The position numbers and the translations under genes are program-made. Positions 12,572 to 64,000 of a DNA stretch of 64,000 nt are shown in pieces; positions within the stretch are counted from its first letter, which is position 1; every line of letters starts with the position of its first letter. The stretch is from Tanypteryx hageni (lineage: Eukaryota > Arthropoda > Insecta > Odonata > Petaluridae). Below the pieces are notes generated by a model, which did not search any database, was not told the DNA's origin, and saw nothing but the letters and a program-made list of their open reading frames with translations. The stretch lies in the NCBI GenBank assembly GCA_028673005.1, contig CM054120.1, positions 58,340,057 through 58,404,056 on the forward strand, given 5' to 3'.

Positions 12572-12579
12572 CTCCTCAT

Positions 12580-13665: not shown

Positions 13666-13673
13666 TAGAGTCA

Positions 13674-15693: not shown

Positions 15694-16013
15694 GGATACA
15701 GCTGTGAGTAAATTTTATATGTACGTATGTTTACTTTAAATTTTCTAGTTTATTCTCATTTTTAGGTTTTTTCATAAATTTACTAAATAACCTTTCTGTT
15801 TATATATTCACTTTTACTTCTTATGTCTTATTTCACCATATGCATGCATGCTTTTGCCTTCACGGATATTAAGTTTAACGGCTATAACGAGCAAAACTAA
15901 ACGGTCCCGTGGCATTCGTTATAGCCGAGTTTGACTGTAGTTACCTGAAAAGAGGTGAACTCCTCCTAAAACATTAACGATAAAATTTCACCAGTGCCAA
16001 TAATACCCTAAGG

Positions 16014-16339: not shown

Positions 16340-16347
16340 CCATAAGG

Positions 16348-17042: not shown

Positions 17043-17050
17043 CCATAGAC

Positions 17051-17373: not shown

Positions 17374-17381
17374 CCATAGGC

Positions 17382-22654: not shown

Positions 22655-23562
22655 CAAAGAATCCGAATCACTTATCCGCAGAGGGGAAAGGTATGTAGAA
22701 ATTGAGAATAAGGAAATTTAATGCCTTGACCGAGATCGAACTCGTGGGATCCGCTTGTATGATTGGTATGCTATCACTGAACTATCGTGGAGAACGAAGT
22801 GAGTCGACGACTTAAAAGTATCCAAATATTAGCGCGAAAAGCGCCTGTTAAAAACATTTATTGCGAAAAAATTCCTAAAATGAAATTTTGCTTTTTAAGA
22901 TATCAGAATCAACAATTCTTGCAGAACATTCAACGTTTGTCGAGTCTCCTAAGAGACCCGGCGCGACGTGCGGGACAGCCGGGCGGATACCCGGGCCGTC
23001 CAGGTCTCGGGGTCGCTATCACGATCATCTACCTTTGCATTACTTGCAAGTGAACAAATATTGGATACCAATTTACAACGCGGAACAGGCTATAATCCCG
23101 ATATCATTCCTTTTATTTTTAATTTAAGTAGTTTTTACAGACTGTATAATTTATTATCATGTACTCATATCTCAAATAACTTTTACGGAGGGAGGCGATG
23201 GAGTGTTATCTCTCCCGGGGACACAAAATTCCTCGAGTTGCACGTGTTCTAGAATTGGAAAACGCTGATTTAGTTTTGAATTTATTTCTATATGCAACAT
23301 TACTGGATTAAAATTTTTTTATTGAATACCAATCGTGATGCATGAAAATAAAGAAGTTGAAATCACTTTTAGGTACTTGGAATCATTTGTAGAAATCCAA
23401 CCATAGGCTCTATTATTCATTATTTAAATGGTTTACATGGAGATTTTAGTAACCCTATGTGCCATATATCGATTTCTATATTTTAATTTTTCTTTATCTA
23501 TTTGTTGTGCAGATATCAAGCAGCTAGAGGTGGCCAAGGGGTCAAAGCAAAACAACCTCTAA
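22655..23562 (+). pseudogene. Array copy 0: partial 65-residue-protein gene, exon 3 frameshifted
   Basis: Only the last 36 nt of exon 2 (22655-22690) follow the gap; intron 22691-23512. In exon 3 one base is missing from the AAGGAGGTC word (here AAGGGGTC). The frame then ends in KGSKQNNL, with TAA at 23560-23562, instead of the usual KEVKAKQPLTRK. It also has the substitution P50L. Just after the normal stop, 21 bases present in all other copies are missing between two AATGAAGCT words, a deletion between short direct repeats. Confidence 0.7.
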
Positions 23563-25149
23563 CCCGCAAATGAAGCTCTTATAAAGGTTCCCTGATGTAG
23601 TTTATTTTGAAAAAAGTTAAATAAAATGTTTTTAAACTCTTATAAGCTCTTTTCTTATTTCAATCTAGTAAATTCGATCGATAATACTTATTACGCGCGA
23701 AAATATTTACTCGCGGTCTTCGGCGTATTTTTATTTGCATCATAAATGGAAATATTAACATCGAAGATAGTTGAAATTTGAATTAAAAACGTCTAAAAGA
23801 ATCTTATATCTTCTATGGATAGCTTCCGATTTTTTAATAACTGGCTACGAGTGTCAGTTTCAGGGTCAATATGCTTGGAGACTTTACCGAATATTGTAAA
23901 AAGGCTTTCGTATAAATTCTCATGGCGAACGATGTATATATCTAGATTTCTCAACTGAAAAAAGATATAAAGTATAAAAGTTTTATAATTTTAATTTCGG
24001 TATGCATGCAACGCCTCCGTGTTCAATAAGCAAATACTTTTTTCCATAAATAATTGACGGCAGAATACCAGCCGCTTATACGGGAGAAGTATACCGAGGA
24101 AATCGGTTGATAGGAACTATCCCGATTCAGGTAAAAAGCTTAAAAGGTAAATCCTAATAATAATAGGCGAATATATCTTACATTCTCAAACGAAGATAAT
24201 CTGATGTGGCAACCACATGAGCCGCTTTTGGGTGTTTTCACTGCTTTGTAGTCATTCCTACGTTTGGTTAAGTCGCACTGAGAACGAGGTACACATTCTC
24301 ACCCCTTTGTTTTCATCCCCTTCTCCTACAGTATTTCCTCCTCCCTGACATTTTGCATTGGTGACGTCGAAATAGAACAGTTTGCCCTCATTAGTTCCAA
24401 TACGTCCATCGTGTGGAAACTTCATTCGAGTGGTGTGCGTCTTTTAGAGTTTAACCTTAAATACCACTATGCCATGTAATCACAGTAACACTACTACCTA
24501 TTGAAAATTCACCCCAGTGCGTTTGGTCTAATTTTATTCATATGAAATCTAATTATCATTTTTAAATAAAAAAGAATGCCATTAACTTTACATTTTTATT
24601 AATTCAAATACATCTGAAAAACGCGCTAAAGTTCAAAATATCTCATATTTGGTCTTTTTTACTGCAAAAGACTAAGTTAAGTGAGAAATACTAAAATAGC
24701 ATTATAAGCTACTTGCAATTGTTACAAATTGTGCTTCTATGATGGCTACATATCAAATTGATGCAGATGGATCATCTGATGCTGAACTTTTTATCTGCAT
24801 TTCGTGGCCAAAGCTTACATCTCCCTTGTTTGGCAGCCTATGAATGGCCTACATTTATAGTACTGACCTTTCATTAAGTAGAATGGTTTTACCTACCCCT
24901 TTCTTATAACTACGATATATTACTTAGGGCATTATTTTGTTTTCATAATGACATATTATACGGTTCCCTTGCGTTAATTAAAATTTGACCTTTGATGAAA
25001 AATATTACGCTAACACTACATTGTGTGAAAATTCACCCGAGGGATTGCATTTTGGATATTTGCTGAAGAAAATTTTAAAAAGAAATACTTCAGAAAGGTA
25101 AATCTTGGCCTTAACTGAGAATACTTAAAATCAGAACTGCGGGAAGCAT

Positions 25150-25332
25150 GGTGAAGGTAGGTATGGAAGAGGGAGCTTAGGGAGGGAGGGGGGAGAGAGA
25201 AAGGATGGAGGGAGAGAGGAAGGATGGAGGGAAAGATAAAGGATGGAAGGCGTGGGGGAGGAAGGTTGGAGAGGAGATGAAGGAGGGAGAGAGGATTGGC
25301 GGACGGAAAAGAGAAAAGGAGGGTCGAGGGAA
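25150..25332 (+). repeat. Purine-rich (GGAGGGA/GAGAGA) tract upstream of candidate exon 1, copy 1
   Basis: About 180 bases on the plus strand are almost only G and A, with GAGAGA, GGAGGGAG and GGATGGA words. It precedes the candidate initiator by about 40 bases. Such tracts can bind GAGA-type factors or form triplex DNA; both roles are inference. Equivalent tracts start at 29036, 32922, 36937, 40823, 44722, 48736, 52635, 56649 and 60660. Open frames of 88-107 codons on the plus strand and 123 codons on the minus strand across it are low-complexity artefacts. Confidence 0.7.
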
Positions 25333-25373
25333 TCTTCAGATAGTTTTGTGTGTTTCCCCGAGCACTAGTGTGC

Positions 25374-25421
25374 AGTGTGGACTTCACTGCGGATTTTTAT
25401 CACGTCTTTGGCATCTAAAAG
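25374..25421 (+). promoter_or_regulatory. Candidate core promoter and non-coding exon 1 of the array gene, copy 1
   Basis: A GCAGTGTGG word (A at 25374) resembles the arthropod initiator TCAGT. In copies 6 and 8 the same site reads TCAGTGTGG, an exact match. A TCACGT word about 27 bases downstream resembles a downstream promoter element but is one base off the usual spacing. The stretch ends CTAAAAG followed by the donor GTTTGT at 25422. It contains no ATG, and spliced to exon 2 the first ATG is the 65-codon start. Donor-side ends in other copies: 29307, 33193, 37208, 41094, 44993, 49007, 52906, 56920 and 60931. Transcription start is inferred. Confidence 0.35.
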
Positions 25422-26419
25422 GTTTGTCACATTTTTTCCTAGTAGAAAGTGCTTTATTTCTCTCGCAATAATATCTGTTCATCTTTAAATTGCGTCTATA
25501 TCCTGAGAGCGATTAGAGATCAACGTATTTGTCCTGTGTACGGAATAGAAAAAAGATTGGCTTCGGTTCTAATACGGGTTCCACAATGATACTTTGTCGC
25601 GCTGAATCGTACTTTTTCTTCCGCATTATTTATGGCGAAGTGATGTATTTAAGCTTCCCGTTGTAAAATTTCCTAGAACGGGTCCCATTAAATAAGTGCG
25701 TACTCCGATGTTTGATAGGCGATTTATTAATCTTAAAGATTACATTAACATGCGATAAGGTGGAATCGGTTCTTTGGTATAATATTATAAAGTTGTATTC
25801 AAAATTAGTAATTGGTACTTGTAGGAATTATAGCATTTTCGACGCTGTGAAATGATTTACGCTACTCTAACAAGTTCGATAATCAGAGATTTAGCAGCAC
25901 GAATTGCACTTCATTACTAGTTTCTCTGCTCCTTATTCCAACTTCGTCTAACGGCACGCTTTGCTCGCCCATTTTTTATTAAATTAATTTATATTTCATT
26001 CATGAATTTAATAGGTAGGTATTTGAGTTATAAAAAACACCTTCACTTATTCAAATTTATTTTTTCGTTTCTAATACAGTGGGATACGATTAATGTGACA
26101 ATTACAATAAACAAAATATTCCAAACAAGATCTGCTTTTTGAATTCCGCAGATGATTGCAATAGACAGTTGATAACCATAAACAGTGATAGTAATAAGCT
26201 GCACCTAATGTATAAATCAATCTTCTTTTCACTTCATTCGCTTTTTTATAGTTTTAAGTGTTTCGGGTGTGCGGAATGTCGTTTTTTGATAATATATTCT
26301 AATAGGAATATGTGTCTTTTGGTCTGTATTTTATTGTATTATGTAGATGCTTCTTAATGATACTTCTAAATGTTTGATTTTATCAATTGCATATTTTTTT
26401 CTGAAATTTTAGTATCGTC

Positions 26420-27439
26420 ATGGATAAACAAAATAAACCCAAGTGCAATGGTGTACTACTAAAAGGAGCACCACAGCGCAATCCAAACCACGAAAAAGCA
26501 GTGGACAATAAACCTGACACAAAGAATCCGAATCACTTATCCGCAGAGGGGAAAGGTATGTAGAAATTGAGAATAAGGAAATTTAATGCCTTGACCGAGA
26601 TCGAACTCGTGTGATCCGCTTGTATGTTTGGTATACTATCACTGAACTATCTTAGAGAACGAAGTGAGTCGACGACTTAAAAGTATCCAAATATTAGCGC
26701 GAAAAGCGCCTGTTAAAAACATTTATTGCGAAAAAATTCCTAAAATGAAATTTTGCTTTTTAAGATATCAGAATCAACAATTCTTGCAGAACATTCAACG
26801 TTTGTCGAGTCTCCTAAGAGACCCGGCGCGACGTGCGGGACAGCCGGGCGGATACCCGGGCCGTCCAGGTCTCGGGGTCGCTATCACGATCATCTACCTT
26901 TGCATTACATGCAAGTGAACAAATATTGGATACCAATTTACAACGCGGAACAGGCTATAATCCCGATATCATTCCTTTTATTTTTAATTTAAGTAGTTTT
27001 TACAGACTGTATAATTTATTATCATGTACTCATATCTCAAATAACTTTTACGGAGGGAGGCGATGGAGTGTTATCTCTCCCGGGGACACAAAATTCCTCG
27101 AGTTGCACGTGTTCTAGAATTGGAAAACGCTGATTTAGTTTTGAATTTATTTCTATATGCAACATTACTGGATTAAAATTTTTTAATTGAATACCAATCG
27201 TGATGCATGAAAATAAAGAAGTTGAAATCACTTTTAGGTACTTGGAATCATTTGTAGAAATCCAACCATAGGCTCTATTATTCATTATTTAAATGGTTTA
27301 CATGGAGATTTTAGTAACCCTATGTGCCATATATCGATTTCTATACTTTAATTTTTCTTTATCTATTTGTTGTGCAGATATCAAGCAGCCAGAGGTGGCC
27401 AAGGAGGTCAAAGCAAAACAACCTCTAACCCGCAAATGA
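26420..27439 (+). CDS. Array gene copy 1: 65-residue Lys/Pro/Asn-rich protein, two coding exons
   Basis: I do not recognise this protein. Exon 2 is entered through a good acceptor (T-rich, TTTTAG) seven bases before ATG 26420 and runs to 26555 (136 nt). The intron is 26556-27377 (GTATGT...TGTGCAG, 822 nt). Exon 3 is 27378-27439 (62 nt), giving 65 codons plus TGA. The product starts MDKQNKPKCNGVLLKG and ends VKAKQPLTRK. It has 13 Lys, 2 Arg, 7 Pro, 7 Asn, few hydrophobics, one Cys (C9), and two NPNH motifs (residues 21-24 and 36-39). No signal peptide or membrane segment is visible; it is probably disordered and basic. Failure to splice would add only GM before a stop, giving 47 residues. AATAAA lies at 27506-27511. 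The form here (Leu13, Lys48) is shared by copies 1-4. Confidence 0.6.
26590..26662 (-). repeat. tRNA-like (SINE-type) sequence in intron 2, copy 1
   Basis: On the minus strand an A-box-like ATAGTTCAGTGATAG (26636-26650) and a B-box-like GAGTTCGATCTCG (about 26597-26609) lie at normal tRNA spacing, with a CGAG/CTCG T stem. The anticodon arm does not pair and the acceptor is not closed, so this is a tRNA-derived relic and not a tRNA gene. It sits at the same place in every unit: 22725, 30476, 34491, 38377, 42263, 46290, 50176, 54203, 58215 and 62226 (left ends). It therefore inserted before amplification. Confidence 0.6.
26809..26873 (+). other. GC-rich hairpin-forming block in intron 2, copy 1
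   Basis: This block is about 70% G+C in an otherwise AT-rich unit. GAGACC (26818-26823) can pair with GGTCTC (26868-26873), enclosing an ACG(T)GC/GCCGT stem and a CCGGG/CCCGG hairpin with loop CGGATA. Alternatively GTCTC (26809-26813) pairs with GAGAC (26818-26822) across a CTAA loop, which excludes the long stem. All copies keep it. Copies 5 and 7 have C-to-T giving a G-T pair; copies 6 and 8 carry a mismatch (CCAGG). Open frames of 84-94 codons across it have no other support. Confidence 0.45.
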
Positions 27440-27505
27440 AGCTACTGCTCCAATAATGAAGCTCTTATAAAAGTTCCCTGATGTAGTTTATTGTGAAAAA
27501 AGTAA

Positions 27506-27511
27506 AATAAA
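27506..27511 (+). terminator. Polyadenylation signal of array gene copy 1
   Basis: AATAAA sits 67 nt after the stop codon. It is followed by a T-rich stretch. The same word is found at the corresponding place in the other units. Confidence 0.5.
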
Positions 27512-33397: not shown

Positions 33398-33526
33398 CTT
33401 ACACTGGCTGATAAGGAACGAATATATATTCCATTTAAATAGCAAGATTACATTGATTATTCGCGCATTTGACAGTGCAGTTATTATAGAGTGAAATCCC
33501 CCTAACGACAAATACCCTTAGGGGGA
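33398..33526 (+). repeat. 129-bp length-polymorphic segment with terminal hairpin in intron 1 (long units)
   Basis: Short units join TTCCGCA directly to TTATTTATGG. Long units carry 129 bases here, beginning CTTACACTGGCT. The last 32 bases, running one base past the segment (33496-33527), hold a 10-bp inverted repeat ATCCCCCTAA/TTAGGGGGAT. The same segment is at 45198-45326, 53111-53239, 57125-57253 and 61136-61264, i.e. before copies 3, 6, 8, 9 and 10. I cannot tell from one sequence whether it was inserted or deleted; no clear target duplication is visible. Confidence 0.8.
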
Positions 33527-39226: not shown

Positions 39227-42092
39227 AGCTACTGCTCCAATAATGAAGCTCTTATAAAGGTTCCCTGATGTAGTTTATTGTGAAAAAAGTAAAATAAAAT
39301 GTTTTTAAACAGTTATAAGCTCTTTTCTTATTTCAATCTAGTAAATTCGATCGATAATACTTATTACGCGCGAAAATATTTACTCGCGGTCTTCTGCGTA
39401 TTTTAATTTGCATCATAAATGGAAATATTAACATCGAAGATAGATGAAATTTGAATTAAAAACGTTTAAAAGAATCTTATATCTTCTATTGATAGCTTCC
39501 GATTTTTTAATAACTGGCTACGAGTGTCAGTTTCAGGGTCAATATGCTTGGAGACTTTACCGAATATTGTAAAAAGGCTTTCGTATAAATTCTCACGGAG
39601 AACGATGAATATATCTAGATTTCTCAACTGAAAAAAGATATAAAGTATAAAAGTTTTATAATTTTAATGTCGGTATGCATGCAACGCCTCCGTGTTCAAT
39701 AAGCAAATACTTTTTTCCATAAATATTTGACGGCAGAATACCAGCCGCTTAAACGGGAGAAGTATACCGAGGAAATCGGTTGATAGGAACTATCCCGATT
39801 CAGGTAAAAAGCTTAAAAGGTAAATCCTAATAATAATAGGCGAATATATCTTACATTCTCAAACGAAGATAATCTGATGTGGCAGCCACATGAGCCGCTT
39901 TTGGGTGTTTTCACTCCTTTGTAGTCATTCCTACGTTTGGTTAAGTCGCACTGAGAACGAGGTACACATTCTCACCCCTTTGTTTTCATCCCCTTCTCCT
40001 TCAGTATTTCCTCCTCCCTGACATTTTGCATTGGTGACGTCGAAATAGAACAGTTTGCCCTCATTAGTTCCAATACGTCCATCGTGTGGAAACTTCATTC
40101 GAGTGGTGTGCGTCTTTTAGAGTTTAACCTTAAATACCACTATGCCATGTAATCACAGTAACACTACTACCTATTGAAAATTCACCCCAGTGCGTTTGGT
40201 CTAATTTTATTCATATGAAATCTAATTATCATTTTTAAATAAAAAAGAATGCCATTAACTTTACATTTTTATTAATTCAAATACATCTGAAAAACGCGCT
40301 AAAGTTCAAAATATCTCATATTTGGTCTTTTTTACTGCAAAAGACTAAGTTAAGTGAGAAATACTAAAATAGCATTATAAGCTACTTGCAATTGTTACAA
40401 ATTGTGCTTCTATGATGGCTACATATCAAATTGATGCAGATGGATCATCTGATGCTGAACTTTTTATCTGCATTTCGTGGCCAAAGCTTACATCTCCCTT
40501 GTTTGGCAGCCTATGAATGGCCTACATTTATAGTACTGACCTTTCATTAAGTAGAATGGTTTTACCTACCCCTTTCTTATAACTACGATATATTACTTAG
40601 GGCATTATTTTGTTTTCATAATGACATATTATACGGTTCCCTTGCGTTAATTAAAATTTGACCTTTGATGAAAAATATTACGCTAACACTACATTGTGTG
40701 AAAATTCACCCGAGGGATTGCATTTTGGATATTTGCTGAAGAAAATTTTAAAAAGAAATACTTCAGAAAGGTAAATCTTGGCCTTAACTGAGAATACTTA
40801 AAATCAGAACTGCGGGAAGCATGGTGAAGGTAGGTATGGAAGAGGGAGCTTAGGGAGGGAGGGGGGAGAGAGAAAGGATGGAGGGAGAGAGGAAGGATGG
40901 AGGGAAAGATAAAGGATGGAAGGCGTGGGGGAGGAAGGTTGGAGAGGAGATGAAGGAGGGAGAGAGGATTGGCGGACGGAAAAGAGAAAAGGAGGGTCGA
41001 GGGAATCTTCAGATAGTTTTGTGTGTTTCCCCGAGCACTAGTGTGCAGTGTGGACTTCACTGCGGATTTTTATCACGTCTTTGGCATCTAAAAGGTTTGT
41101 CACATTTTTTCCTAGTAGAAAGTGCTTTATTTCTCTCGCAATAATATCTGTTCATCTTTAAATTGCGTCTATATCCTGAGAGCGATTAGAGATCAACGTA
41201 TCTGTCCTGTGTACGGAATAGAAAAAAGTTTGGCTTCGGTTCTAATACGGGTTCCACAATGATACTTTGTCGCGCTGAATCGTACTTTTTCTTCCGCATT
41301 ATTTATAGCGAAGTGATGTATTTAAGCTTCCCGTTGTAAAATTTCCTAGAACGGGTCCAATTAAATAAGTGCGTACTCCGATGTTTGATACGCGATTTAT
41401 TAATCTTAAAGATTACATTAACATGCGATAAGGTGGAATCGGTTCTTTGGTATAATATTATAAAGTTGTATTCAAAATTAGTAATTGGTACTTGTAGGAA
41501 TTATAGCATTTTCGACGCTGTGAAATGATTTACGCTACTCTAACAAGTTCGATAATCAGAGATTTAGCAGCACGAATTGCACTTCATTACTAGTTTCTCT
41601 GCTCCTTATTCCAACTTCGTCTAACGGCACGCTTTGCTCGCCCATTTTTTATTAAATTAATTTATATTTCATTCATGAATTTAATAGGTAGGTATTTGAG
41701 TTATAAAAAACACCTTCACTTATTCAAATTTATTTTTTCGTTTCTAATACAGTGGGATACGATTAATGTGACAATTACAATAAACAAAATATTCCAAACA
41801 AGATCTGCTTTTTGAATTCCGCAGATGATTGCAATAGACAGTTGATAACCATAAACAGTGATAGTAATAAGCTGCACCTAATGTATAAAAAAATCTTCTT
41901 TTCACTTCATTCGCTTTTTTATAGTTTTAAGTGTTTCGGGTGTGCGGAATGTCGTTTTTTGATAATATATTCTAATAGGAATATGTGTCTTTTGGTCTGT
42001 ATTTTATTGTATTATGTAGATGCTTTTTAATGATACTTCTAAATGTTTGATTTTATCAATTGCATATTTTTTTCTGAAATTTTAGTATCGTC

Positions 42093-43112: not shown

Positions 43113-46100
43113 AGCTACTGCTCCAATAATGAAGCTCTTATAAAGGTTCCCTGATGTAGTTTATTGTGAAAAAAGTTAAATAAAATGTTTTTAAACAGTT
43201 ATAAGCTCTTTTCTTATTTCAATCTAGTAAATTCTATCGATAATACTTATTACGCGCGAAAATATTTACTCGCGGTCTTCGGCGTATTTTTATTTGCATC
43301 ATAAATGGAAATATTAACATCGAAGATAGTTGAAATTTGAATTAAAAACGTTTAAAAGAATCTTATATCTTCTATTGATAGCTTCCGATTTTTTAATAAC
43401 TGGCTACGAGTGTCAGTTTCAGGGTCAATATGCTTGGAGACTTTACCGAATATTGTAAAAAGGCTTTCGTATAAATTCTCATGGAGAACGATGAATATAT
43501 CTAGATTTCTCAACTGAAAAAAGATATAAAGTATAAAAGTTTTATAATTTTAATGTCGGTATGCATGCAACGCCTCCGTGTTCAATAAGAAAATACTTTT
43601 TTCCATAAATATTTGACGGCAGAATACCAGCCGCTTAAACGGGAGAAGTATACCGAGGAAATCGGTTGATAGGAACTATCCCGATTCAGGTAAAAAGCTT
43701 AAAAGGTAAATCCTAATAATAATAGGCGAATATATCTTACATTCTCAAACGAAGATAATCTGATGTGGCAGCCACATGAGCCGCTTTTGGGTGTTTTCAC
43801 TCCTTTGTAGTCATTCCTACGCTTGGTTCAGTCGCACTGAGAACGAGGTACACATTCTCACCCCTTTGTTTTCATCCCCTTCTCCTTCAGTATTTCCTCC
43901 TCCCTGACATTTTGCATTGGTGACGTCGAAATAGAACAGTTTGCCCTCATTAGTTCCAATACGTCCATCGTGTGGAAACTTCATTCGAGTGGTGTGCGTC
44001 TTTTAGAGTTTAACCTTAAATACCACTATGCCATGTAATCACAGTAACACTACTACCTATTGAAAATTCACCCCAGTGCGTTTGGTCTAATTTTATAAAT
44101 ATGAAATCTAATTATCATTCTTAAATAAAATAGAATGCCGTTAACATTACATTTTTATTAATTCAAATACATCTGAAAAACGCGCTAAAGATCAAAATAA
44201 CTCATATTTGGTCTTTTATACTACAAAAGACTAAGTTAAGTGAGAAATAATAAAATAGCATTATAAGTTACTTGCAATTGTTACAAATTGTGCTTCTATG
44301 ATGGCCACATATCAAATTGATGCAGATGGATCATCTGATGCTGAACTTTTTATCTGCATTTCGTGGCCAAAGCTTACATCTCCCTTGTTTGGCAGCCTAT
44401 GAATGGCCTACATTTATAGTACTGACCAAAGATACCGACCTTTCATTAAGTAGAATGGTTTTACCTACCCCTTCCTTATAACTACTATATATTACTTAGG
44501 GCATTATTTTGTTTTCATAATGACATATTATACGGTTCGCTTGCGTTAATTAAAATTTGACCTTTGATGAAAAATATTACGCTAACACTACATTGTGTGA
44601 AAATTCACCCGAGGGATTGCATTTTGGATATTTGCTGAAGAAAATTTTAAAAAGAAATACTTCAGAAAGGTAAATCTTGGCCTTAACTGAGAATACTTAA
44701 AATCAGAACTGCGGGAAGCATGGTGAAGGTAGGTATGGAAGAGGGAGCTGAGGGAGGGTGGGGGGAGAGAGAAAAGATAGAGGGAGAGAGGAAAGATGGA
44801 GGGAAAGATAAAGGATGGAAGGCGTGGGGGAGGAAGGTTGGAGAGGAGATGAAGGAGGGAGAAAGGATTGGCGGACGGAAAAGAGAAAAGGAGGGTCGAG
44901 GGAATCTTCAGATAATGTTGTGTGTTTATCCGAGCACTAGTGTTCAGTGTGGACTTCACTGCGGATTTTTATCACGTCTTTGGCATCTAAAAGGTTTGTC
45001 ACATTTTTTCCTAGTAGAAAGTGCTTTATTTCTCTCGCAATAATATCTGTTCATCTTTCCATTGCGTCTATATCCTGAGAGCGATTAGAGATCGACGTAT
45101 CTGTCCTGTGTACGGAATAGAAAAAAGTTTGGCTTCGGTTCTAATACAGGTTCCACAATGATACTTAGTCGCGGTGAATCGTACTTTTTCTTCCGCACTT
45201 ACACTGGCTAATAAGGAACGAATATATATTCCATTTAAATAGCAAGTTTACATTGATTATTCGCGCATTTGACAGTGCAGTTTTTATAGAGTGAAATCCC
45301 CCTAACGACGAATACCCTTAGGGGGATATTCATGGCCAAGAGATGTATTTAAGCTTCCCGTTGTAAAATTTCCTAAAACGGGTCCTATTAAATAAGTGCG
45401 TACTCCGATATTTGATACGCGATTTATTAATCTTAAAGATTACATTAACTTACAATAAGGTGGAATCGGTTCTTTGGTATAATAATATAAAGTTGTATTC
45501 AAAATTAGTAATTGGTACTTGTAGGAATTATAGCATTTTCGACGCTGTGAAATGATTTACGCTACTCTAACAAGTTCGATAATCAGAGATTTAGCAGCAC
45601 GAATTGCACTTCATTACTAGTTTCTCTGCTCCTTATTCCAACTTCGTCTAACGGCACGCTTTGCTCGCCCATTTTTTATTAAATTAATTTATATTTCATT
45701 CATGAATTTAATAGGTAGGTATTTGAGTTATAAAACACACCTTCACTTATTCAAATTTATTTCTTCGTTTCAAATACAGTGGCATACTATTAATGTGACA
45801 ATTACAATAAACAAAATATTCAAAATAAGATCTGCTTCTTGAATTCCGCGGATGATTGCAATAGACAGTTGATAACCATAAACAGTGATAGTAATAAGCT
45901 GCACCTAATGTATAAATCAATCTTCTTTTTACTTCATTCGCTTTTTTATAGTTTTAAGTGTTTCGGGTGTGCGGAATGTCGTTTTTTGATAATATATTCT
46001 AATAGGAATATGTGTCTTTTGGTCTGTATTTTATTGTATTATGTAGATGCTTCTTAATGATACTTCTAAATGTTTGATTTTATCAATTGCATATTTTTTT

Positions 46101-46119
46101 CTGAAATTTTAGTATCGTC

Positions 46120-47139
46120 ATGGATAAACAAAATAAACCCAAGTGCAATGGTGTACCACTAAAAGGAGCACCACAGCGCAATCCAAACCACGAAAAAGCA
46201 GTGGACAATAAACCTGACACAAAGAATCCGAATCACTTATCCGCAGAGGGGAAAGGTATGTAGAAATTGAGAATAAGGAAATTTAATGCCTTGACAGAGA
46301 TCGAACTCGTGTGATCCGCTTGTATGATTGGTATACTATCACTGAACTATCTTGGAGAACGAAGTGAGTCGACGACTTAAAAGTATCCAAATATTAGCGC
46401 GAAAAGCGCCTGTTAAAAACATTTATTGCGAAAAAATTCCTAAAATGAAATTTTGCTTTTTAAGATATCAGAATCAACAATTCTTGCAGAACATTCAACG
46501 TTTGTCGAGTCTCCTAAGAGACCCGGCGCGACGTGCGGGACAGCCAGGAGGATACCCGGGCCGTCCAGGTCTCGGGGTCGCTAACACGATCATCTACCTT
46601 TGCATTACTTGCAAGTGAACAAATATTGGATACCAATTTACAACGCGGAACAGGCTATAATCCCGATATCATCCCTTTTATTTTTAAGTTAAGTAGTTTT
46701 TACAGACTGTATAATTTATTATCATGTACTCATATCTCAAATAACTTTTACGGAGGGAGGCGATGGAGTGTTATCTCTCCCGGGGACACAAAATTCCTCG
46801 AGTTGCACGTGTTCTAGAATTGGAAAACGCTGATTTAGTTTTGAATTTATTTCTATATGCAACATTACTGTATTAAAATTTTTTAATTGTATACCAATCG
46901 TGATGCATGAAAATAAAGAAGTTGAAATCACTTTTAGGTACTTGGAATCATTTGTAGAAATCCAACCATAGGATATATTATTCATTATTTAAATGGTTTA
47001 CATGGAGATTTTAGTAACCCTATGTGCCATATATCGATTTCTATACCTTAATTTTTCTTTATCTATTTGTTGTGCAGATATCAAGCAGCCAGAGGTGGCC
47101 AAGGAGGTCAAAGCAAAACAACCTCTAACCCGCAAATGA
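46120..47139 (+). CDS. Array gene copy 6, intact, L13P variant
   Basis: Exon 2 is 46120-46255, exon 3 47078-47139. GTACTACTA is changed to GTACCACTA, so Leu13 becomes Pro. The candidate initiator upstream reads TCAGTGTGG (A at 44946). The unit has the 129-bp segment and a 13-bp insertion near 44428. Confidence 0.6.
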
Positions 47140-50005
47140 AGCTACTGCTCCAATAATGAAGCTCTTATAAAGGTTCCCTGATGTAGTTTATTGTGAAAAA
47201 AGTTAAATAAAATGTTTTTAAACAGTTATAAGCTCTTTTCTTATTTCAATCTAGTAAATTCTATCGATAATACTTATTACGCGCGAAAATATTTACTCGC
47301 GGTCTTCGGCGTATTTTTATTTGCATCATAAATGGAAATATTAACATCGAAGGTAGTTGAAATTTGAATTAAAAACGTTTAAAAGAATCTTATATCTTCT
47401 ATTGATAGCTTCCGATTTTTTAATAACTGGCTACGAGTGTCAGTTTCAGGGTCAATATGCTTGGAGACTTTACCGAATATTGTAAAAAGGCTTTCGTATA
47501 AATTCTCATGGAGAACGATGAATATATCTAGATTTCTCAACTGAAAAAAGATATAAAGTATAAAAGTTTTATAATTTTAATGTCGGTATGCATGCAACGC
47601 CTCCGTGTTCAATAAGCAAATACTTTTTTCCATAAATATTTGACGGCAGAATACCAGCCGCTTAAACGGGAGAAGTATACCGAGGAAATCGGTTGATAGG
47701 AACTATCCCGATTCAGGTAAAAAGCTTAAAAGGTAAATCCTAATAATAATAGGCGAATATATCTTACATTCTCAAACGAAGATAATCTGATGTGGCAACC
47801 ACATGAGCCGCTTTTGGGTGTTTTCACTGCTTTGTAGTCATTCCTACGCTTGGTTAAGTCGCACTGAGAACGAGGTACACATTCTCACCCCTTTTTTTTC
47901 ATCCCCTTCTCCTTCAGTATTTCCTCCTCCCTGACATTTTGCATTGGTGAAGTCGAAATAGAACAGTTTGCCCTCATTAGTTCCAATACGTCCATCGTGT
48001 GGAAACTTCATTCGAGTGGTGTGCGTCTTTTAGAGTTTAACCTTAAATACCACTATGCCATGTAATCACAGTACCGCTACAACCTATTGAAAATTCACCC
48101 CAGTGCGTTTGGTCTAATTTTATTCATATGAAATCTAATTATCATTTTTAAATAAAATAGAAGGCCATTAACTTTACATTTTTATTAATTCAAATACATC
48201 TGAAAAACGCGCTAAAGATCAAAATAACTCATATTTGGTCTTTTATACTGCAAAAGACTAAGTTAAGTGAAAAATACTAAAATAGCATTAAAAGCTACTT
48301 GCAATTGTTACAAATTGTGCTTCTATGATGGCCACATATCAAATTGATGCAGATGGATCATCTGATGCTGAACTTTTTATCTGCATTTCGTGGCCAAAGC
48401 TTACATCTCCCTTGTTTGGCAGCCTATGAATGGCCTACATTTATAGTACTGACCTTTCATTAAGTAGAATGGTTTTACCTAACCCTTCCTTATAACTACG
48501 ATATATTACTTAGTGCATTATTTTGTTTTCATAATGACATATTATACGGTTCGCTTGCGTTAATTAAAATTTGACCTTTGATGAAAAATATTACGCTAAC
48601 ACTACATTGTGTGAAAATTCACCCGAGGGATTGCATTTTGGATATTTGCTGAAGAAAATTTTAAAAAGAAATACTTCAGAAAGGTAAATCTTGGCCTTAA
48701 CTGAGAATACTTAAAATCAGAACTGCGGGAAGCATGGTGAAGGTAGGTATGGAAGAGGGAGCTTAGGGAGGGAGGGGGGAGAGAGAAAGGATGGAGGGAG
48801 AGAGGAAGGATGGAGGGAAAGATAAAGGATGGAAGGCGTGGGGGAGGAAGGTTGGAGAGGAGATGAAGGAGGGAGAGAGGATTGGCGGACGGAAAAGAGA
48901 AAAGGAGGGTCGAGGGAATCTTCAGATAGTTTTGTGTGTTTCCCCGAGCACTAGTGTGCAGTGTGGACTTCACTGCGGATTTTTATCACGTCTTTGGCAT
49001 CTAAAAGGTTTGTCACATTTTTTCCTAGTAGAAAGTGCTTTATTTCTCTCGCAATAATATCTGTTCATCTTTAAATTGCGTCTATATCCTGAGAGCGATT
49101 AGAGATCAACGTATCTGTCCTGTGTACGGAATAGAAAAAAGTTTGGCTTCGGTTCTAATACGGGTTCCACAATGATACTTTGTCGCGCTGAATCGTACTT
49201 TTTCTTCCGCATTATTTATAGCGAAGTGATGTATTTAAGCTTCCCGTTGTAAAATTTCCTAGAACGGGTCCAATTAAATAAGTGCGTACTCCGATGTTTG
49301 ATACGCGATTTATTAATCTTAAAGATTACATTAACATGCGATAAGGTGGAATCGGTTCTTTGGTATAATATTATAAAGTTGTATTCAAAATTAGTAATTG
49401 GTACTTGTAGGAATTATAGCATTTTCGACGCTGTGAAATGATTTACGCTACTCTAACAAGTTCGATAATCAGAGATTTAGCAGCACGAATTGCACTTCAT
49501 TACTAGTTTCTCTGCTCCTTATTCCAACTTCGTCTAACGGCACGCTTTGCTCGCCCATTTTTTATTAAATTAATTTATATTTCATTCATGAATTTAATAG
49601 GTAGGTATTTGAGTTATAAAAAACACCTTCACTTATTCAAATTTATTTTTTCGTTTCTAATACAGTGGGATACGATTAATGTGACAATTACAATAAACAA
49701 AATATTCCAAACAAGATCTGCTTTTTGAATTCCGCAGATGATTGCAATAGACAGTTGATAACCATAAACAGTGATAGTAATAAGCTGCACCTAATGTATA
49801 AAAAAATCTTCTTTTCACTTCATTCGCTTTTTTATAGTTTTAAGTGTTTCGGGTGTGCGGAATGTCGTTTTTTGATAATATATTCTAATAGGAATATGTG
49901 TCTTTTGGTCTGTATTTTATTGTATTATGTAGATGCTTTTTAATGATACTTCTAAATGTTTGATTTTATCAATTGCATATTTTTTTCTGAAATTTTAGTA
50001 TCGTC

Positions 50006-51025
50006 ATGGATAAACAAAATAAACCCAAGTGCAATGGTGTACTACTAAAAGGAGCACCACAGCGCAATCCAAACCACGAAAAAGCAGTGGACAATAAACC
50101 TGACACAAAGAATCCGAATCACTTATCCGCAGAGGGGAAAGGTATGTAGAAATTGAGAATAAGGAAATTTAATGCCTTGACCGAGATCGAACTCGTGTGA
50201 TCCGCTTGTATGTTTGGTATACTATCACTGAACTATCTTGGAGAACGAAGTGAGTCGACGACTTAAAAGTATCCAAATATTAGCGCGAAAAGCGCCTGTT
50301 AAAAACATTTATTGCGAAAAAATTCCTAAAATGAAATTTTGCTTTTTAAGATATCAGAATCAACAATTCTTGCAGAACATTCAACGTTTGTCGAGTCTCC
50401 TAAGAGACCCGGCGCGACGTGCGGGACAGTCGGGCGGATACCCGGGCCGTCCAGGTCTCGGGGTCGCTATCACGATCATCTACCTTTGCATTACATGCAA
50501 GTGAACAAATATTGGATACCAATTTACAACGCGGAACAGGCTATAATCCCGATATCATTCCTTTTATTTTTAATTTAAGTAGTTTTTACAGACTGTATAA
50601 TTTATTATCATGTACTCATATCTCAAATAACTTTTACGGAGGGAGGCGATGGAGTGTTATCTCTCCCGGGGACACAAAATTCCTCGAGTTGCACGTGTTC
50701 TAGAATTGGAAAACGCTGATTTAGTTTTGAATTTATTTCTATATGCAACATTACTGGATTAAAATTTTTTAATTGAATACCAATCGTGATGCATGAAAAT
50801 AAAGAAGTTGAAATCACTTTTAGGTACTTGGAATCATTTGTAGAAATCCAACCATAGGCTCTATTATTCATTATTTAAATGGTTTACATGGAGATTTTAG
50901 TAACCCTATGTGCCATATATCGATTTCTATACTTTAATTTTTCTTTATCTATTTGTTGTGCAGATATCAATCAGCCAGAGGTGGCCAAGGAGGTCAAAGC
51001 AAAACAACCTCTAACCCGCAAATGA
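50006..51025 (+). CDS. Array gene copy 7, intact, K48N variant
   Basis: Exon 2 is 50006-50141, exon 3 50964-51025. It has the same sequence as copy 5 and is the second member of the 7913-bp duplication. Confidence 0.6.
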
Positions 51026-54000
51026 AGCTACTGCTCCAATAATGAAGCTCTTATAAAGGTTCCCTGATGTAGTTTATTGTGAAAAAAGTTAAATAAAATG
51101 TTTTTAAACAGTTATAAGCTCTTTTCTTATTTCAATCTAGTAAATTCTATCGATAATACTTATTACGCGCGAAAATATTTACTCGCGGTCTTCGGCGTAT
51201 TTTTATTTGCATCATAAATGGAAATATTAACATCGAAGATAGTTGAAATTTGAATTAAAAACGTTTAAAAGAATCTTATATCTTCTATTGATAGCTTCCG
51301 ATTTTTTAATAACTGGCTACGAGTGTCAGTTTCAGGGTCAATATGCTTGGAGACTTTACCGAATATTGTAAAAAGGCTTTCGTATAAATTCTCATGGAGA
51401 ACGATGAATATATCTAGATTTCTCAACTGAAAAAAGATATAAAGTATAAAAGTTTTATAATTTTAATGTCGGTATGCATGCAACGCCTCCGTGTTCAATA
51501 AGAAAATACTTTTTTCCATAAATATTTGACGGCAGAATACCAGCCGCTTAAACGGGAGAAGTATACCGAGGAAATCGGTTGATAGGAACTATCCCGATTC
51601 AGGTAAAAAGCTTAAAAGGTAAATCCTAATAATAATAGGCGAATATATCTTACATTCTCAAACGAAGATAATCTGATGTGGCAGCCACATGAGCCGCTTT
51701 TGGGTGTTTTCACTCCTTTGTAGTCATTCCTACGCTTGGTTCAGTCGCACTGAGAACGAGGTACACATTCTCACCCCTTTGTTTTCATCCCCTTCTCCTT
51801 CAGTATTTCCTCCTCCCTGACATTTTGCATTGGTGACGTCGAAATAGAACAGTTTGCCCTCATTAGTTCCAATACGTCCATCGTGTGGAAACTTCATTCG
51901 AGTGGTGTGCGTCTTTTAGAGTTTAACCTTAAATACCACTATGCCATGTAATCACAGTAACACTACTACCTATTGAAAATTCACCCCAGTGCGTTTGGTC
52001 TAATTTTATAAATATGAAATCTAATTATCATTCTTAAATAAAATAGAATGCCGTTAACATTACATTTTTATTAATTCAAATACATCTGAAAAACGCGCTA
52101 AAGATCAAAATAACTCATATTTGGTCTTTTATACTACAAAAGACTAAGTTAAGTGAGAAATAATAAAATAGCATTATAAGTTACTTGCAATTGTTACAAA
52201 TTGTGCTTCTATGATGGCCACATATCAAATTGATGCAGATGGATCATCTGATGCTGAACTTTTTATCTGCATTTCGTGGCCAAAGCTTACATCTCCCTTG
52301 TTTGGCAGCCTATGAATGGCCTACATTTATAGTACTGACCAAAGATACCGACCTTTCATTAAGTAGAATGGTTTTACCTACCCCTTCCTTATAACTACTA
52401 TATATTACTTAGGGCATTATTTTGTTTTCATAATGACATATTATACGGTTCGCTTGCGTTAATTAAAATTTGACCTTTGATGAAAAATATTACGCTAACA
52501 CTACATTGTGTGAAAATTCACCCGAGGGATTGCATTTTGGATATTTGCTGAAGAAAATTTTAAAAAGAAATACTTCAGAAAGGTAAATCTTGGCCTTAAC
52601 TGAGAATACTTAAAATCAGAACTGCGGGAAGCATGGTGAAGGTAGGTATGGAAGAGGGAGCTGAGGGAGGGTGGGGGGAGAGAGAAAAGATAGAGGGAGA
52701 GAGGAAAGATGGAGGGAAAGATAAAGGATGGAAGGCGTGGGGGAGGAAGGTTGGAGAGGAGATGAAGGAGGGAGAAAGGATTGGCGGACGGAAAAGAGAA
52801 AAGGAGGGTCGAGGGAATCTTCAGATAATGTTGTGTGTTTATCCGAGCACTAGTGTTCAGTGTGGACTTCACTGCGGATTTTTATCACGTCTTTGGCATC
52901 TAAAAGGTTTGTCACATTTTTTCCTAGTAGAAAGTGCTTTATTTCTCTCGCAATAATATCTGTTCATCTTTCCATTGCGTCTATATCCTGAGAGCGATTA
53001 GAGATCGACGTATCTGTCCTGTGTACGGAATAGAAAAAAGTTTGGCTTCGGTTCTAATACAGGTTCCACAATGATACTTAGTCGCGGTGAATCGTACTTT
53101 TTCTTCCGCACTTACACTGGCTAATAAGGAACGAATATATATTCCATTTAAATAGCAAGTTTACATTGATTATTCGCGCATTTGACAGTGCAGTTTTTAT
53201 AGAGTGAAATCCCCCTAACGACGAATACCCTTAGGGGGATATTCATGGCCAAGAGATGTATTTAAGCTTCCCGTTGTAAAATTTCCTAAAACGGGTCCTA
53301 TTAAATAAGTGCGTACTCCGATATTTGATACGCGATTTATTAATCTTAAAGATTACATTAACTTACAATAAGGTGGAATCGGTTCTTTGGTATAATAATA
53401 TAAAGTTGTATTCAAAATTAGTAATTGGTACTTGTAGGAATTATAGCATTTTCGACGCTGTGAAATGATTTACGCTACTCTAACAAGTTCGATAATCAGA
53501 GATTTAGCAGCACGAATTGCACTTCATTACTAGTTTCTCTGCTCCTTATTCCAACTTCGTCTAACGGCACGCTTTGCTCGCCCATTTTTTATTAAATTAA
53601 TTTATATTTCATTCATGAATTTAATAGGTAGGTATTTGAGTTATAAAACACACCTTCACTTATTCAAATTTATTTCTTCGTTTCAAATACAGTGGCATAC
53701 TATTAATGTGACAATTACAATAAACAAAATATTCAAAATAAGATCTGCTTCTTGAATTCCGCGGATGATTGCAATAGACAGTTGATAACCATAAACAGTG
53801 ATAGTAATAAGCTGCACCTAATGTATAAATCAATCTTCTTTTTACTTCATTCGCTTTTTTATAGTTTTAAGTGTTTCGGGTGTGCGGAATGTCGTTTTTT
53901 GATAATATATTCTAATAGGAATATGTGTCTTTTGGTCTGTATTTTATTGTATTATGTAGATGCTTCTTAATGATACTTCTAAATGTTTGATTTTATCAAT

Positions 54001-54032
54001 TGCATATTTTTTTCTGAAATTTTAGTATCGTC

Positions 54033-55052
54033 ATGGATAAACAAAATAAACCCAAGTGCAATGGTGTACCACTAAAAGGAGCACCACAGCGCAATCCAAA
54101 CCACGAAAAAGCAGTGGACAATAAACCTGACACAAAGAATCCGAATCACTTATCCGCAGAGGGGAAAGGTATGTAGAAATTGAGAATAAGGAAATTTAAT
54201 GCCTTGACAGAGATCGAACTCGTGTGATCCGCTTGTATGATTGGTATACTATCACTGAACTATCTTGGAGAACGAAGTGAGTCGACGACTTAAAAGTATC
54301 CAAATATTAGCGCGAAAAGCGCCTGTTAAAAACATTTATTGCGAAAAAATTCCTAAAATGAAATTTTGCTTTTTAAGATATCAGAATCAACAATTCTTGC
54401 AGAACATTCAACGTTTGTCGAGTCTCCTAAGAGACCCGGCGCGACGTGCGGGACAGCCAGGAGGATACCCGGGCCGTCCAGGTCTCGGGGTCGCTAACAC
54501 GATCATCTACCTTTGCATTACTTGCAAGTGAACAAATATTGGATACCAATTTACAACGCGGAACAGGCTATAATCCCGATATCATCCCTTTTATTTTTAA
54601 GTTAAGTAGTTTTTACAGACTGTATAATTTATTATCATGTACTCATATCTCAAATAACTTTTACGGAGGGAGGCGATGGAGTGTTATCTCTCCCGGGGAC
54701 ACAAAATTCCTCGAGTTGCACGTGTTCTAGAATTGGAAAACGCTGATTTAGTTTTGAATTTATTTCTATATGCAACATTACTGTATTAAAATTTTTTAAT
54801 TGTATACCAATCGTGATGCATGAAAATAAAGAAGTTGAAATCACTTTTAGGTACTTGGAATCATTTGTAGAAATCCAACCATAGGATATATTATTCATTA
54901 TTTAAATGGTTTACATGGAGATTTTAGTAACCCTATGTGCCATATATCGATTTCTATACCTTAATTTTTCTTTATCTATTTGTTGTGCAGATATCAAGCA
55001 GCCAGAGGTGGCCAAGGAGGTCAAAGCAAAACAACCTCTAACCCGCAAATGA
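54033..55052 (+). CDS. Array gene copy 8, intact, L13P variant
   Basis: Exon 2 is 54033-54168, exon 3 54991-55052. It has the same sequence as copy 6, again through the 7913-bp duplication. The initiator-like TCAGTGTGG recurs at A 52859. Confidence 0.6.
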
Positions 55053-58045
55053 AGCTACTGCTCCAATAATGAAGCTCTTATAAAGGTTCCCTGATGTAGT
55101 TTATTGTGAAAAAAGTTAAATAAAATGTTTTTAAACAGTTATAAGCTCTTTTCTTATTTCAATCTAGTAAATTCTATCGATAATACTTATTACGCGCGAA
55201 AATATTTACTCGCGGTCTTCGGCGTATTTTTATTTGCATCATAAATGGAAATATTAACATCGAAGGTAGTTGAAATTTGAATTAAAAACGTTTAAAAGAA
55301 TCTTATATCTTCTATTGATAGCTTCCGATTTTTTAATAACTGGCTACGAGTGTCAGTTTCAGGGTCAATATGCTTGGAGACTTTACCGAATATTGTAAAA
55401 AGGCTTTCGTATAAATTCTCATGGAGAACGATGAATATATCTAGATTTCTCAACTGAAAAAAGATATAAAGTATAAAAGTTTTATAATTTTAATGTCGGT
55501 ATGCATGCAACGCCTCCGTGTTCAATAAGCAAATACTTTTTTCCATAAATATTTGACGGCAGAATACCAGCCGCTTAAACGGGAGAAGTATACCGAGGAA
55601 ATCGGTTGATAGGAACTATCCCGATTCAGGTAAAAAGCTTAAAAGGTAAATCCTAATAATAATAGGCGAATATATCTTACATTCTCAAACGAAGATAATC
55701 TGATGTGGCAACCACATGAGCCGCTTTTGGGTGTTTTCACTGCTTTGTAGTCATTCCTACGCTTGGTTAAGTCGCACTGAGAACGAGGTACACATTCTCA
55801 CCCCTTTTTTTTCATCCCCTTCTCCTTCAGTATTTCCTCCTCCCTGACATTTTGCATTGGTGAAGTCGAAATAGAACAGTTTGCCCTCATTAGTTCCAAT
55901 ACGTCCATCGTGTGGAAACTTCATTCGAGTGGTGTGCGTCTTTTAGAGTTTAACCTTAAATACCACTATGCCATGTAATCACAGTACCGCTACAACCTAT
56001 TGAAAATTCACCCCAGTGCGTTTGGTCTAATTTTATTCATATGAAATCTAATTATCATTTTTAAATAAAATAGAAGGCCATTAACTTTACATTTTTATTA
56101 ATTCAAATACATCTGAAAAACGCGCTAAAGATCAAAATAACTCATATTTGGTCTTTTATACTGCAAAAGACTAAGTTAAGTGAAAAATACTAAAATAGCA
56201 TTAAAAGCTACTTGCAATTGTTACAAATTGTGCTTCTATGATGGCCACATATCAAATTGATGCAGATGGATCATCTGATGCTGAACTTTTTATCTGCATT
56301 TCGTGGCCAAAGCTTACATCTCCCTTGTTTGGCAGCCTATGAATGGCCTACATTTATAGTACTGACCTTTCATTAAGTAGAATGGTTTTACCTAACCCTT
56401 CCTTATAACTACGATATATTACTTAGTGCATTATTTTGTTTTCATAATGACATATTATACGGTTCGCTTGCGTTAATTAAAATTTGACCTTTGATGAAAA
56501 ATATTACGCTAACACTACATTGTGTGAAAATTCACCCGAGGGATTGCATTTTGGATATTTGCTGAAGAAAATTTTAAAAAGAAATACTTCAGAAAGGTAA
56601 ATCTTGGCCTTAACTGAGAATACTTAAAATCAGAACTGCGGGAAGCATGGTGAAGGTAGGTATGGAAGAGGGAGCTGAGGGAGGGAGGGGGGAGAGAGAA
56701 AGGATAGAGGGAGAGAGGAAGGATGGAGGGAAAGATAAAGGATGGAAGGCGTGGGGGAGGAAGGTTGGAGAGAAGATGAAGGAGGGAGAGAGGATTGGCG
56801 GACGGAAAAGAGAAAAGGAGGGTCGAGGGAATCTTCAGATAATGTTGTGTGTTTCCCCGAGCACTAGTGTGCAGTGTGGACTTCACTGCAGATTTTTATC
56901 ACGTCTTTGGCATCTAAAAGGTTTGTCACATTTTTTCCTAGTAGAAAGTGCTTTATTTCTCTCGCAATAATATCTGTTCATCTTTCCATTGCGTCTATAT
57001 CCTGAGAGCGATTAGATATCGACGTATCTGTCCTGTGTACGGAATAGAAAAAAGTTTGGCTTCGGTTCTAATACGGGTTCCATAATGATACTTAGTCGCG
57101 GTGAATCGTACTTTTTCTTCCGCACTTACACTGGCTGATAAGGAACGAATATATATTCCATTTAAATAGCAAGTTTACATTGATTATTCGCGCATTCGAC
57201 AGTGCAGTTTTTATAGAGTGAAATCCCCCTAACGACGAATACCCTTAGGGGGATATTTATGGCGAAGAGATGTATTTAAGCTTCCCGTTGTAAAATTTCC
57301 TAGAACGGGTCCAATTAAATAAGTGCGTACTCCGATGTTTGATACGCGATTTTTAATCTTAAAGATTACATTAACTTGCAATAAGGTGGAATCGGTTCTT
57401 TGGAATAATATTATAAAGTTGTATTCAAAATTAGTAATTGGTACTTGTAGGAATTATAGCATTTTCGACGCTGTGAAATGATTTACGCTACTCTAACAAG
57501 TTCGATAATCAGAGATTTAGCAGCACGAATTGCACTTCATTACTAGTTTCTCTGCTCCTTATTCCAACTTCGTCTAACGGCACGCTTTGCTCGCCCATTT
57601 TTTATTAAATTAATTTATATTTCATTCATGAATTTAATAGGTAGGTATTTGAGTTATAAAACACACCTTCACTTATTCAAATTTATTTCTTCGTTTCAAA
57701 TACAGTGGCATACTATTAATGTGACAATTACAATAAACAAAATATTCAAAATAAGATCTGCTTCTTGAATTCCGCGGATGATTGCAATAGACAGTTGATA
57801 ACCATAAACAGTGATAGTAATAAGCTGCACCTAATGTATAAATCAATCTTCTTTTTACTTCATTCGCTTTTTTATAGTTTTAAGTGTTTCGGGTGTGCGG
57901 AATGTCGTTTTTTGATAATATATTCTAATAGGAATATGTGTCTTTTGGTCTGTATTTTATTGTATTATGTAGATGCTTTTTAATGATACTTCTAAATGTT
58001 TGATTTTATCAATTGCATATTTTTTTCTGAAATTTTAGTATCGTC

Positions 58046-62056: not shown

Positions 62057-63075
62057 ATGGATAAACAAATAAACCCAAGTGCAATGGTGTACCACTAAAA
62101 GGAGCACCACTGCGCAATCCAAACCACGAAAAAGCAGTGGACAATAAACCTGACACAAAGAATCCGAATCACTTATCCGCAGAGGGGAAAGGTATGTAGA
62201 AATTGAGAATAAGGAAATTTAATGCCTTGACCGAGATCGAACTCGTGTGATCCGCTTGTATGATTGGTATACTATCACTGAACTATCTTGGAGAACGAAG
62301 TGAGTCGACGACTTAAAAGTATCCAAATATTAGCGCGAAAAGCGCCTGTTAAAAACATTTATTGCGAAAAAATTCCTAAAATGAAATTTTGCTTTTTAAG
62401 ATATCAGAATCAACAATTCTTGCAGAACATTCAACGTTTGTCGAGTCTCCTAAGAGACCCGGCGCGACGTGCGGGACAGCCGGGCGGATACCCGGGCCGT
62501 CCAGGTCTCGGGGTCGCTATCACGATCATCTACCTTTGCATTACTTGCAAGTGAACAAATATTGGATACCAATTTACAACGCGGAACAGGCTATAATCCC
62601 GATATCATTCCTTTTATTTTTAATTTAAGTAGTTTTTACAGACTGTATAATTTATTATCATGTACTCATATCTCAAATAACTTTTACGGAGGGAGGCGAT
62701 GGAGTGTTATCTCTCCCGGGAACACAAAATTCCTCGAGTTGCACGTGTTCTAGAATTGGAAAACGCTGATTTAGTTTTGAATTTATTTCTATATGCAACA
62801 TTACCGGATTAAAATTTTTTAATTGAATACCAATCGTGATGCATGAAAATAAAGAAGTTGAAATCACTTTTAGGTACTTGGAATCATTTGTAGAAATCCA
62901 ACCATAGGCTCTATTATTCATTATTTAAATGGTTTACATGGAGTTTTTAGTAACCCTATGTGCCATATATCGATTTCTATATTTTAATTTTTCTTTATCG
63001 ATTTGTTGTGCAGATATCAAGCAGCCAGAGGTGGCCAAGGAGGTCAAAGCAAAACAACCTCTAACCCGCAAATGA
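62057..63075 (+). pseudogene. Array gene copy 10, frameshifted in exon 2 only
   Basis: Exon 2 (62057-62191) has the same missing A as copy 9, so the reading frame stops after 13 codons. Exon 3 (63014-63075) is intact, unlike copy 9, so the two broken neighbours differ by one restored or independently retained base. Sequence after the gene shares variants with copy 0 at the left end of the array. Confidence 0.75.
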
Positions 63076-64000
63076 AGCTACTGCTCCAATAATGAAGCTC
63101 TTATAAAGGTTCCCTGATGTAGTTTATTGTGAAAAAAGTTAAATAAAATGTTTTTAAACTCTTATAAGCTCTTTTCTTATTTCAATCTAGTAAATTCGAT
63201 CGATAATACTTATTACGCGCGAAAATATTTACTCGCGGTCTTCGGCGTATTTTTATTTGTATCATAAATGGAAATATTAACATCGAAGATAGTTGAAATT
63301 TGAATTAAAAACGTCTAAAAGAATCTTATATCTTCTATTGATAGCTTCCGATTTTTTAATAACTGGCTACGAGTGTCAGTTTCAGGGTCAATATGCTTGG
63401 AGACTTTACCGAATATTGTAAAAAGGCTTTCGTATAAATTCTCATGGAGAACGATGAATATATCTAGATTTCTCAACTGAAAAAAGATATAAAGTATAAA
63501 AGTTTTATAATTTTAATGTCGGTATGCATGCAACGCCTCCGTGTTCAATAAGCAAATACTTTTTTCCATAAATAATTGACGGCAGAATACCAGCCGCTTA
63601 AACGGGAGAAGTATACCGAGGAAATCGGTTGATAGGAACTATCCCGATTCAGGTAAAAAGCTTAAAAGGTAAATCCTAATAATAATAGGCGAATATATCT
63701 TACATTCTCAAACGAAGATAATCTGATGTGGCAACCACATGAGCCGCTTTTGGGTGTTTTCACTGCTTTGTAGTCATTCCTACGTTTGGTTAAGTCGCAC
63801 TGAGAACGAGGTACACATTCTCACCCCTTTGTTTTCATCCCCTTCTCCTACAGTATTTCCTCCTCCCTGACATTTTGCATTGGTGACGTCGAAATAGAAC
63901 ATTTTGCCCTCATTAGTTCCAATACGTCCATCGTGTGGAAACTTCATTCGAGTGGTGTGCGTCTTTTAGAGTTTAACCTTAAATACCACTATGCCATGTA

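Follow-up and report, generated by a model that had tools for sequence, protein, structure and literature searches.

Does the tandem repeat in the window, by which we mean the whole 64,000-nucleotide stretch of DNA that was analysed (C9:58340057-58404056, in a genome of 1.68 Gb), consist of copies of a gene, or is it a satellite whose unit happens to contain an open frame? The initial annotation had described an array of a small spliced gene, each unit carrying promoter-like sequence, three exons and a poly(A) signal, and had proposed a new dosage-amplified or selfish gene family. Our best reading of the locus is a lineage-specific tandem gene array, or a gene-bearing macrosatellite, that is under concerted evolution.

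The array itself was readily recovered. At least ten head-to-tail units had been claimed, and we found ten copies of exon 2 and eleven of exon 3, each exon 3 being followed by AATAAA; all units in the window run in the same direction. Unit sizes are 3886, 3899 and 4011-4015 bp, and exact 20-mers recur at distances of 3886, 4011-4015 and 4027 bases. Aligned window units are 97.9-100% identical in pairwise comparisons. Some units carry a 128-bp segment of intron 1 (33399-33526 in unit u3) that others do not, and the spacer of some contains an extra 13 bp. No long inverted repeat was found in the one unit tested. The features of the array within the window, including a duplicated dimer, are listed in the Table.

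Table. Positions of the array and of the features of its first full unit, in window coordinates
Feature	Position	Strand	Remarks
500-N scaffold gap	22155..22654	.	probable false join
Tandem array, part within the window	22655..64000	+	first and last units cut; extends past 64000 and, to the left of 22655, into C763 on its reverse strand
Purine-rich (GGGAGAGAGAAAGG-type) tract directly upstream of exon 1	25178..25330	+	found at all ten exon-1 anchors of the window
Putative non-coding exon 1, first full unit	25330..25421	+	start inferred and uncertain
Intron 1	25422..26412	+	
Exon 2	26413..26555	+	ATG at 26420
Starts of further exon-2 copies	30299, 34314, 38200, 42086, 46113, 49999, 54026, 58039 (frameshift), 62050 (frameshift)	+	
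Intron 2	26556..27377	+	822 bp in all ten full window units
Exon 3, coding part	27378..27439	+	TGA at 27437-27439
AATAAA poly(A) signal	27506..27511	+	read from the sequence
Duplicated 7.9-kb dimer	41072..56897	+	by alignment, u5 and u7 100% identical, u6 and u8 99.85%

A 65-residue frame in a consistent exon structure had also been claimed, and the two-exon coding frame with good splice sites was confirmed. Donor 2 ranked first among the 192 GT dinucleotides of the unit, and of its 208 AGs acceptor 1 came 8th and acceptor 2 came 6th; donor 1 (AAG/GTTTGT at 25422) is a weaker site that ranked 9th of the 192 GTs. An equally good spliced frame of at least 65 residues was obtained in 0 of 400 dinucleotide shuffles, scored on one strand, and when the thresholds were lowered by 2 bits 0.75% of the shuffles passed with a poly(A) signal and 1.5% without one; the thresholds were chosen post hoc on the real unit, such that these values are a guide rather than a test. 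The real unit contains a second possible frame of 90 residues that uses an alternative acceptor at 26997. Within the window the 65-residue frame is open in eight of the ten full units, but it is shifted in the units with exon 2 at 58039 and 62050 by a one-base deletion in exon 2. The partial first unit of the window has a one-base deletion in exon 3. The predicted protein, MDKQNKPKCNGVLLKGAPQRNPNHEKAVDNKPDTKNPNHLSAEGKDIKQPEVAKEVKAKQPLTRK, has a pI of 9.8 and a GRAVY value of -1.50. It is likely to be very hydrophilic and basic, with no recognised domain, and its composition suggests that it is probably disordered. The description of the upstream sequence as promoter-like fared less well: although the purine-rich tract is found at all ten full anchors, an initiator-like TTCAGT is present at just two of these, and no TATA box was seen upstream by eye.

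The array had been placed at 22655-64000. It is a true head-to-tail array over that interval, but it is not confined to it, as it extends rightward to C9:~58411622 and leftward into C763, a separate record of 250,000 bases. Read on its reverse strand, C763 ends in ...CCTGACA and the array in the window starts with CAAAGAATCC. Joined, the two give an uninterrupted exon 2 with a seam that is exact to the base at 22655, and the resulting seam unit of 3994 bp is near the ordinary length. Because C763 and position 22655 meet exactly within exon 2, we infer that a single contig was severed within the array and that the wrong flank was then joined to it. The 22-kb left flank in the window (1-22154) is probably a scaffolding artefact rather than the true neighbour of the array. 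The main array, composed of the array parts in C763, in the window and in the right continuation, is ~143 kb long and contains 36 exon-1 anchors. A genome search for exon 2 gave 96 candidate matches, 40 of which were scored, so that copy counts taken from this search are lower bounds; every placed copy found among those scored lies on one chromosome. A CpG contrast between the left flank of the window (0.57) and the array (1.08) was considered as a sign of foreign DNA, an idea that was abandoned once the flank proved unlikely to be the genuine neighbour. The CpG values are 0.68-0.95 in the flanks adjoining both arrays, 1.10 in the main array and 0.78 over the initial 25 kb of the second array described below.

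Several other features were observed in the left flank of the window. A piggyBac-type transposase relic lies in several frames at 3186-5021, two pieces of which match the Pfam family DDE_Tnp_1_7, and a pogo/Tigger-like DNA transposon relic lies at 13700-15900, with weak CENP-B_N and HTH_Tnp_Tc5 matches below the cutoff and end repeats seen by eye. The observed/expected CpG ratio is 0.19-0.70 in 2-kb windows over 4001-20000 compared to 1.06-1.14 over 1-4000; the former interval has the look of a transposon-rich stretch or of a gene body that is methylated. A tRNA-like match at 5775-5834 scored 31.1 bits (gathering score 29), was unconfirmed by ARAGORN and is perhaps a SINE, and a near-palindrome of 101 bp (87%) occupies 6695-6795.

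A second array was found 2.4 Mb from the main array at C9:55845083-56001028. It is ~156 kb long, of which ~66 kb was read, and its exon-2 copies are spaced 7335-7340 bp (~7.34 kb) apart where neighbours were read. Its unit corresponds to the main-array unit plus an extra 3.3 kb in intron 1 that carries pieces of a LINE endonuclease and reverse transcriptase, and the first unit is without the LINE. About 20 units were estimated from the length and spacing. The scored copies on either side of the unread interval C9:55870000-55935000 are not separated by an integral multiple of the unit, and an insertion, a deletion or a gap is therefore likely within 55.870-55.935 Mb.

The edges of the two arrays correspond. 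On the left, both arrays break off at one and the same position of the unit (~3758), and both right ends consist of exon 3, spacer up to 774 and then spacer 1412-1480. The right flanks are ~96% alike over at least 4.7 kb; similarity of the left flanks is patchy at 74-77%, except for 147 bp that are 98% alike. Both loci thus seem to derive from a single ancestral locus and to have re-expanded separately. The right flank also contains, at L010:4516-7173 on the minus strand, an open LINE frame of 885 residues that by eye is alike to the LINE of the second array.

Divergence between units of the main array increases with the distance that separates them, averaging 0.99% for neighbours (34 pairs), 1.97% for units 10 apart (25 pairs) and 2.69% for units 30 apart (5 pairs), which fits local unequal exchange. 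A comparison of nine full window units yielded 5050 informative site pairs, of which 612 conflict with a single tree. The mean divergence is 1.9% inside the main array (35 units) compared to 6.2% between these units and one aligned LINE-free unit of the second array. The locus therefore shows whole-gene units arranged head to tail, units that are closer within than between arrays and exchange between units, as would be expected of a tandem gene array under concerted evolution; its unit is of the kilobase scale of macrosatellites, which would also vary in copy number. The earlier proposal of a tandemly amplified, intron-containing gene unit is borne out by a gene model beyond what the shuffles gave, by the two arrays and by concerted evolution. 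As the introns were kept, amplification took place at the DNA level.

The main rival to a gene array is a macrosatellite, in which a long-unit repeat spreads by recombination and the frame is a relic or arose by chance, with no selected product. We consider this explanation unlikely. Of 44 gene models, one was cut by the N gap and the 43 complete ones were counted; two exon-2 matches without an exon 3 in the fetched stretch were left out, one of them being the seam unit, with 61 residues and a shifted end. The frame is intact in 26 of the 43 models and broken in 17. By place, it is intact in 10 of 23 models in C763, 8 of 10 in the window, 0 of 2 in the right continuation as modelled (one of these models is without the usual acceptor) and 8 of 8 in the second array. 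When the units of the main array were taken in order, the 12 leftmost stop after two residues, 18 of the next 20 are intact and the last 4 are broken. Thus, 0 of 16 copies are intact at the ends compared to 18 of 20 in the centre. The 12 units in C763 that share one early stop, which in the one inspected results from a K-to-stop change at codon 3, are an example of broken copies that were amplified as readily as intact ones, as would be expected of a macrosatellite.

Codon changes also match the neutral expectation. The variable codons among the 26 intact copies comprise 12 replacement and 4 silent changes, compared to 0.722:0.240 (~3:1) expected without selection, and no amino-acid constraint was detected by this comparison. 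Differences between the two arrays number 10 of 198 positions in coding sequence (9 of 136 in the exon 2 part and 1 of 62 in the exon 3 part), a share near those of intron 1 (75 of 1114), intron 2 (50 of 822) and the spacer (85 of 1613); the single difference in the exon 3 part speaks for a gene. The dN/dS values between arrays of 0.61 and 0.43 come from 10 and 8 changed codons, which are too few to decide. In the window, coding exons show no significant deficit of variable sites (4 of 201 versus 145 of 3814, p 0.25). The coding exons do not avoid indels either, as 3 of 7 indel events in the window fall in this 5% of the length (p 0.004); the number drops to 2 without a 20-bp deletion that does not remove the stop codon. 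Three observations argue against the macrosatellite reading. The first is that none of the 400 shuffles reproduced the spliced frame. The second is its codon periodicity: over the whole 65-residue frame, base composition by codon position is non-random to a modest extent (shuffle p 0.012), placing the frame in the top 1.5% of 1033 unit windows and the top 3.2% of 1060 left-flank windows, although the signal was not significant in the single exons (p 0.20 and 0.09). The third is that the frame is open in both arrays, including all eight complete models of the second array despite ~6% divergence; these eight count as about one event because the encoded protein is identical.

A homologue of the 65-residue protein was found in none of the collections searched. 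The frame had no match in Pfam and none in PDB at E values up to 10, and no relative was confirmed in viral and prokaryotic contigs, all of which would also suit a macrosatellite. At gathering scores no Rfam family was found in the array part of the window, lax thresholds gave nothing of note in the two stretches tried, and no tRNA was detected in the array. With no Rfam, tRNA or Pfam match (the last for the 65-residue frame alone), assignment to the histone, rDNA, 5S, snRNA or tRNA arrays failed. The product of Stellate is casein-kinase-2-beta-like, and the lack of a Pfam match for our frame gave no sign of a product of this type. A tRNA-like stretch noted by eye in intron 2 was unsupported by ARAGORN or Rfam. 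The specific proposal of a new lineage-specific dosage-amplified or selfish family, with some 55 copies in two sister arrays and a basic, probably disordered 65-residue putative product without known relative, is in our judgement doubtful.

Alternatively, the RNA rather than the frame could be what matters. Su(Ste) is a model of an array that serves as a source of small RNAs, and a spliced non-coding RNA or small-RNA source of this kind would account for units that have splice sites and a poly(A) signal but in which no constraint on codons was detected. We regard this as improbable. Structured RNA has little support, as the mean folding z was -0.1 over 190 windows of one unit and the GC-rich stretch of intron 2 gave z -0.16; the best-folding of these windows (z -3.4), which lies over exon 2, is the one result in the other direction. 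The Rfam results, the single orientation of the window units and the lack of a long inverted repeat in the unit tested also argue against a non-coding RNA array. Multiplication of copies by the assembler is very improbable, since the identity of u5 and u7, the 500-N gap and the contig cut at the array are outweighed by the graded divergence among 36 exon-1 anchors, by array edges that pass into different sequence and by the second array, whose unit bears a LINE of its own.

We return to the gene array. It is probable, though by no means assured, that a lineage-specific gene was duplicated, introns included, and that unequal exchange then amplified it, that the central copies still encode the frame and that the dosage of the product is the likely benefit. 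A small polymerase-II-type gene, with a non-coding exon 1, two coding exons and a poly(A) signal, would have been duplicated in tandem as a genomic segment that included the introns and the upstream tract, with a breakpoint near spacer 1481. Repeated unequal exchange would then have grown the array to ~36 units and homogenised it locally. A copy of the locus with its right flank lies ~2.4 Mb away, where a unit with the LINE in intron 1 would have been re-amplified to ~20 units. The open frame would have been kept in the central units while the edge units decayed, and the benefit would lie in product dosage in a restricted tissue or stage. The anatomy and boundaries of the arrays, the pattern of exchange and the broken copies were observed; beyond these, the scheme presumes that the units are transcribed, spliced and translated and that the product has a dosage function; dosage action is suggested by analogy with array genes in general.

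Whole-gene arrays of such size usually mark a need for very high expression or genetic conflict. Among known systems, mammalian macrosatellites of the D4Z4/DUX4 type contain a gene inside a 3-5 kb tandem unit, and Sdic has a chimeric origin. Unlike D4Z4/DUX4, the frame described here matched neither a homeobox nor any other Pfam domain. For the histone cluster of Drosophila, divergence rises from 0.12% between adjacent units to 0.43% between units ~30 apart (PMC12400953). That cluster and our array have a 4-5 kb head-to-tail unit and a divergence that approximately triples over 30 units; however, no histone gene was recognised here (neither Pfam for the frame nor Rfam for the array gave a match), our units are six to eight times more divergent and many copies are broken. 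The euchromatic Stellate cluster of Drosophila melanogaster has 11, 198 and 1 copies in three strains (PMC12400953). Our array resembles it as a species-limited tandem and putatively protein-coding unit with partly degenerate copies, but our unit is about three times longer and its predicted product has no known relation. Sdic of Drosophila melanogaster, present in 3-7 copies in ~90% of individuals with coding potential in 31 of 31 annotated copies, is likewise a young family of tandem genes that undergo gene conversion (PMC7475035), whereas the present array has tens of copies, many of them broken. A study of crayfish satellites applies the term macrosatellite to units above 100 bp and gave us no parallel (PMC13130569), and conflict and multigene families are treated in PMC10618873. 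A literature search, which carries little weight, recognised no paper on such an array, and within the literature on GA-repeat regulation of histone loci no paper that combined all points was found.

The case probably also illustrates how an assembly may break a contig within an array and attach a false flank to it. Should the product be made, the locus would add one more orphan gene to the short list of array-amplified genes. Even if it is not made, the sister arrays, with their shared edges, datable LINE and graded divergence, are a natural record of unequal exchange spreading working and broken copies alike.
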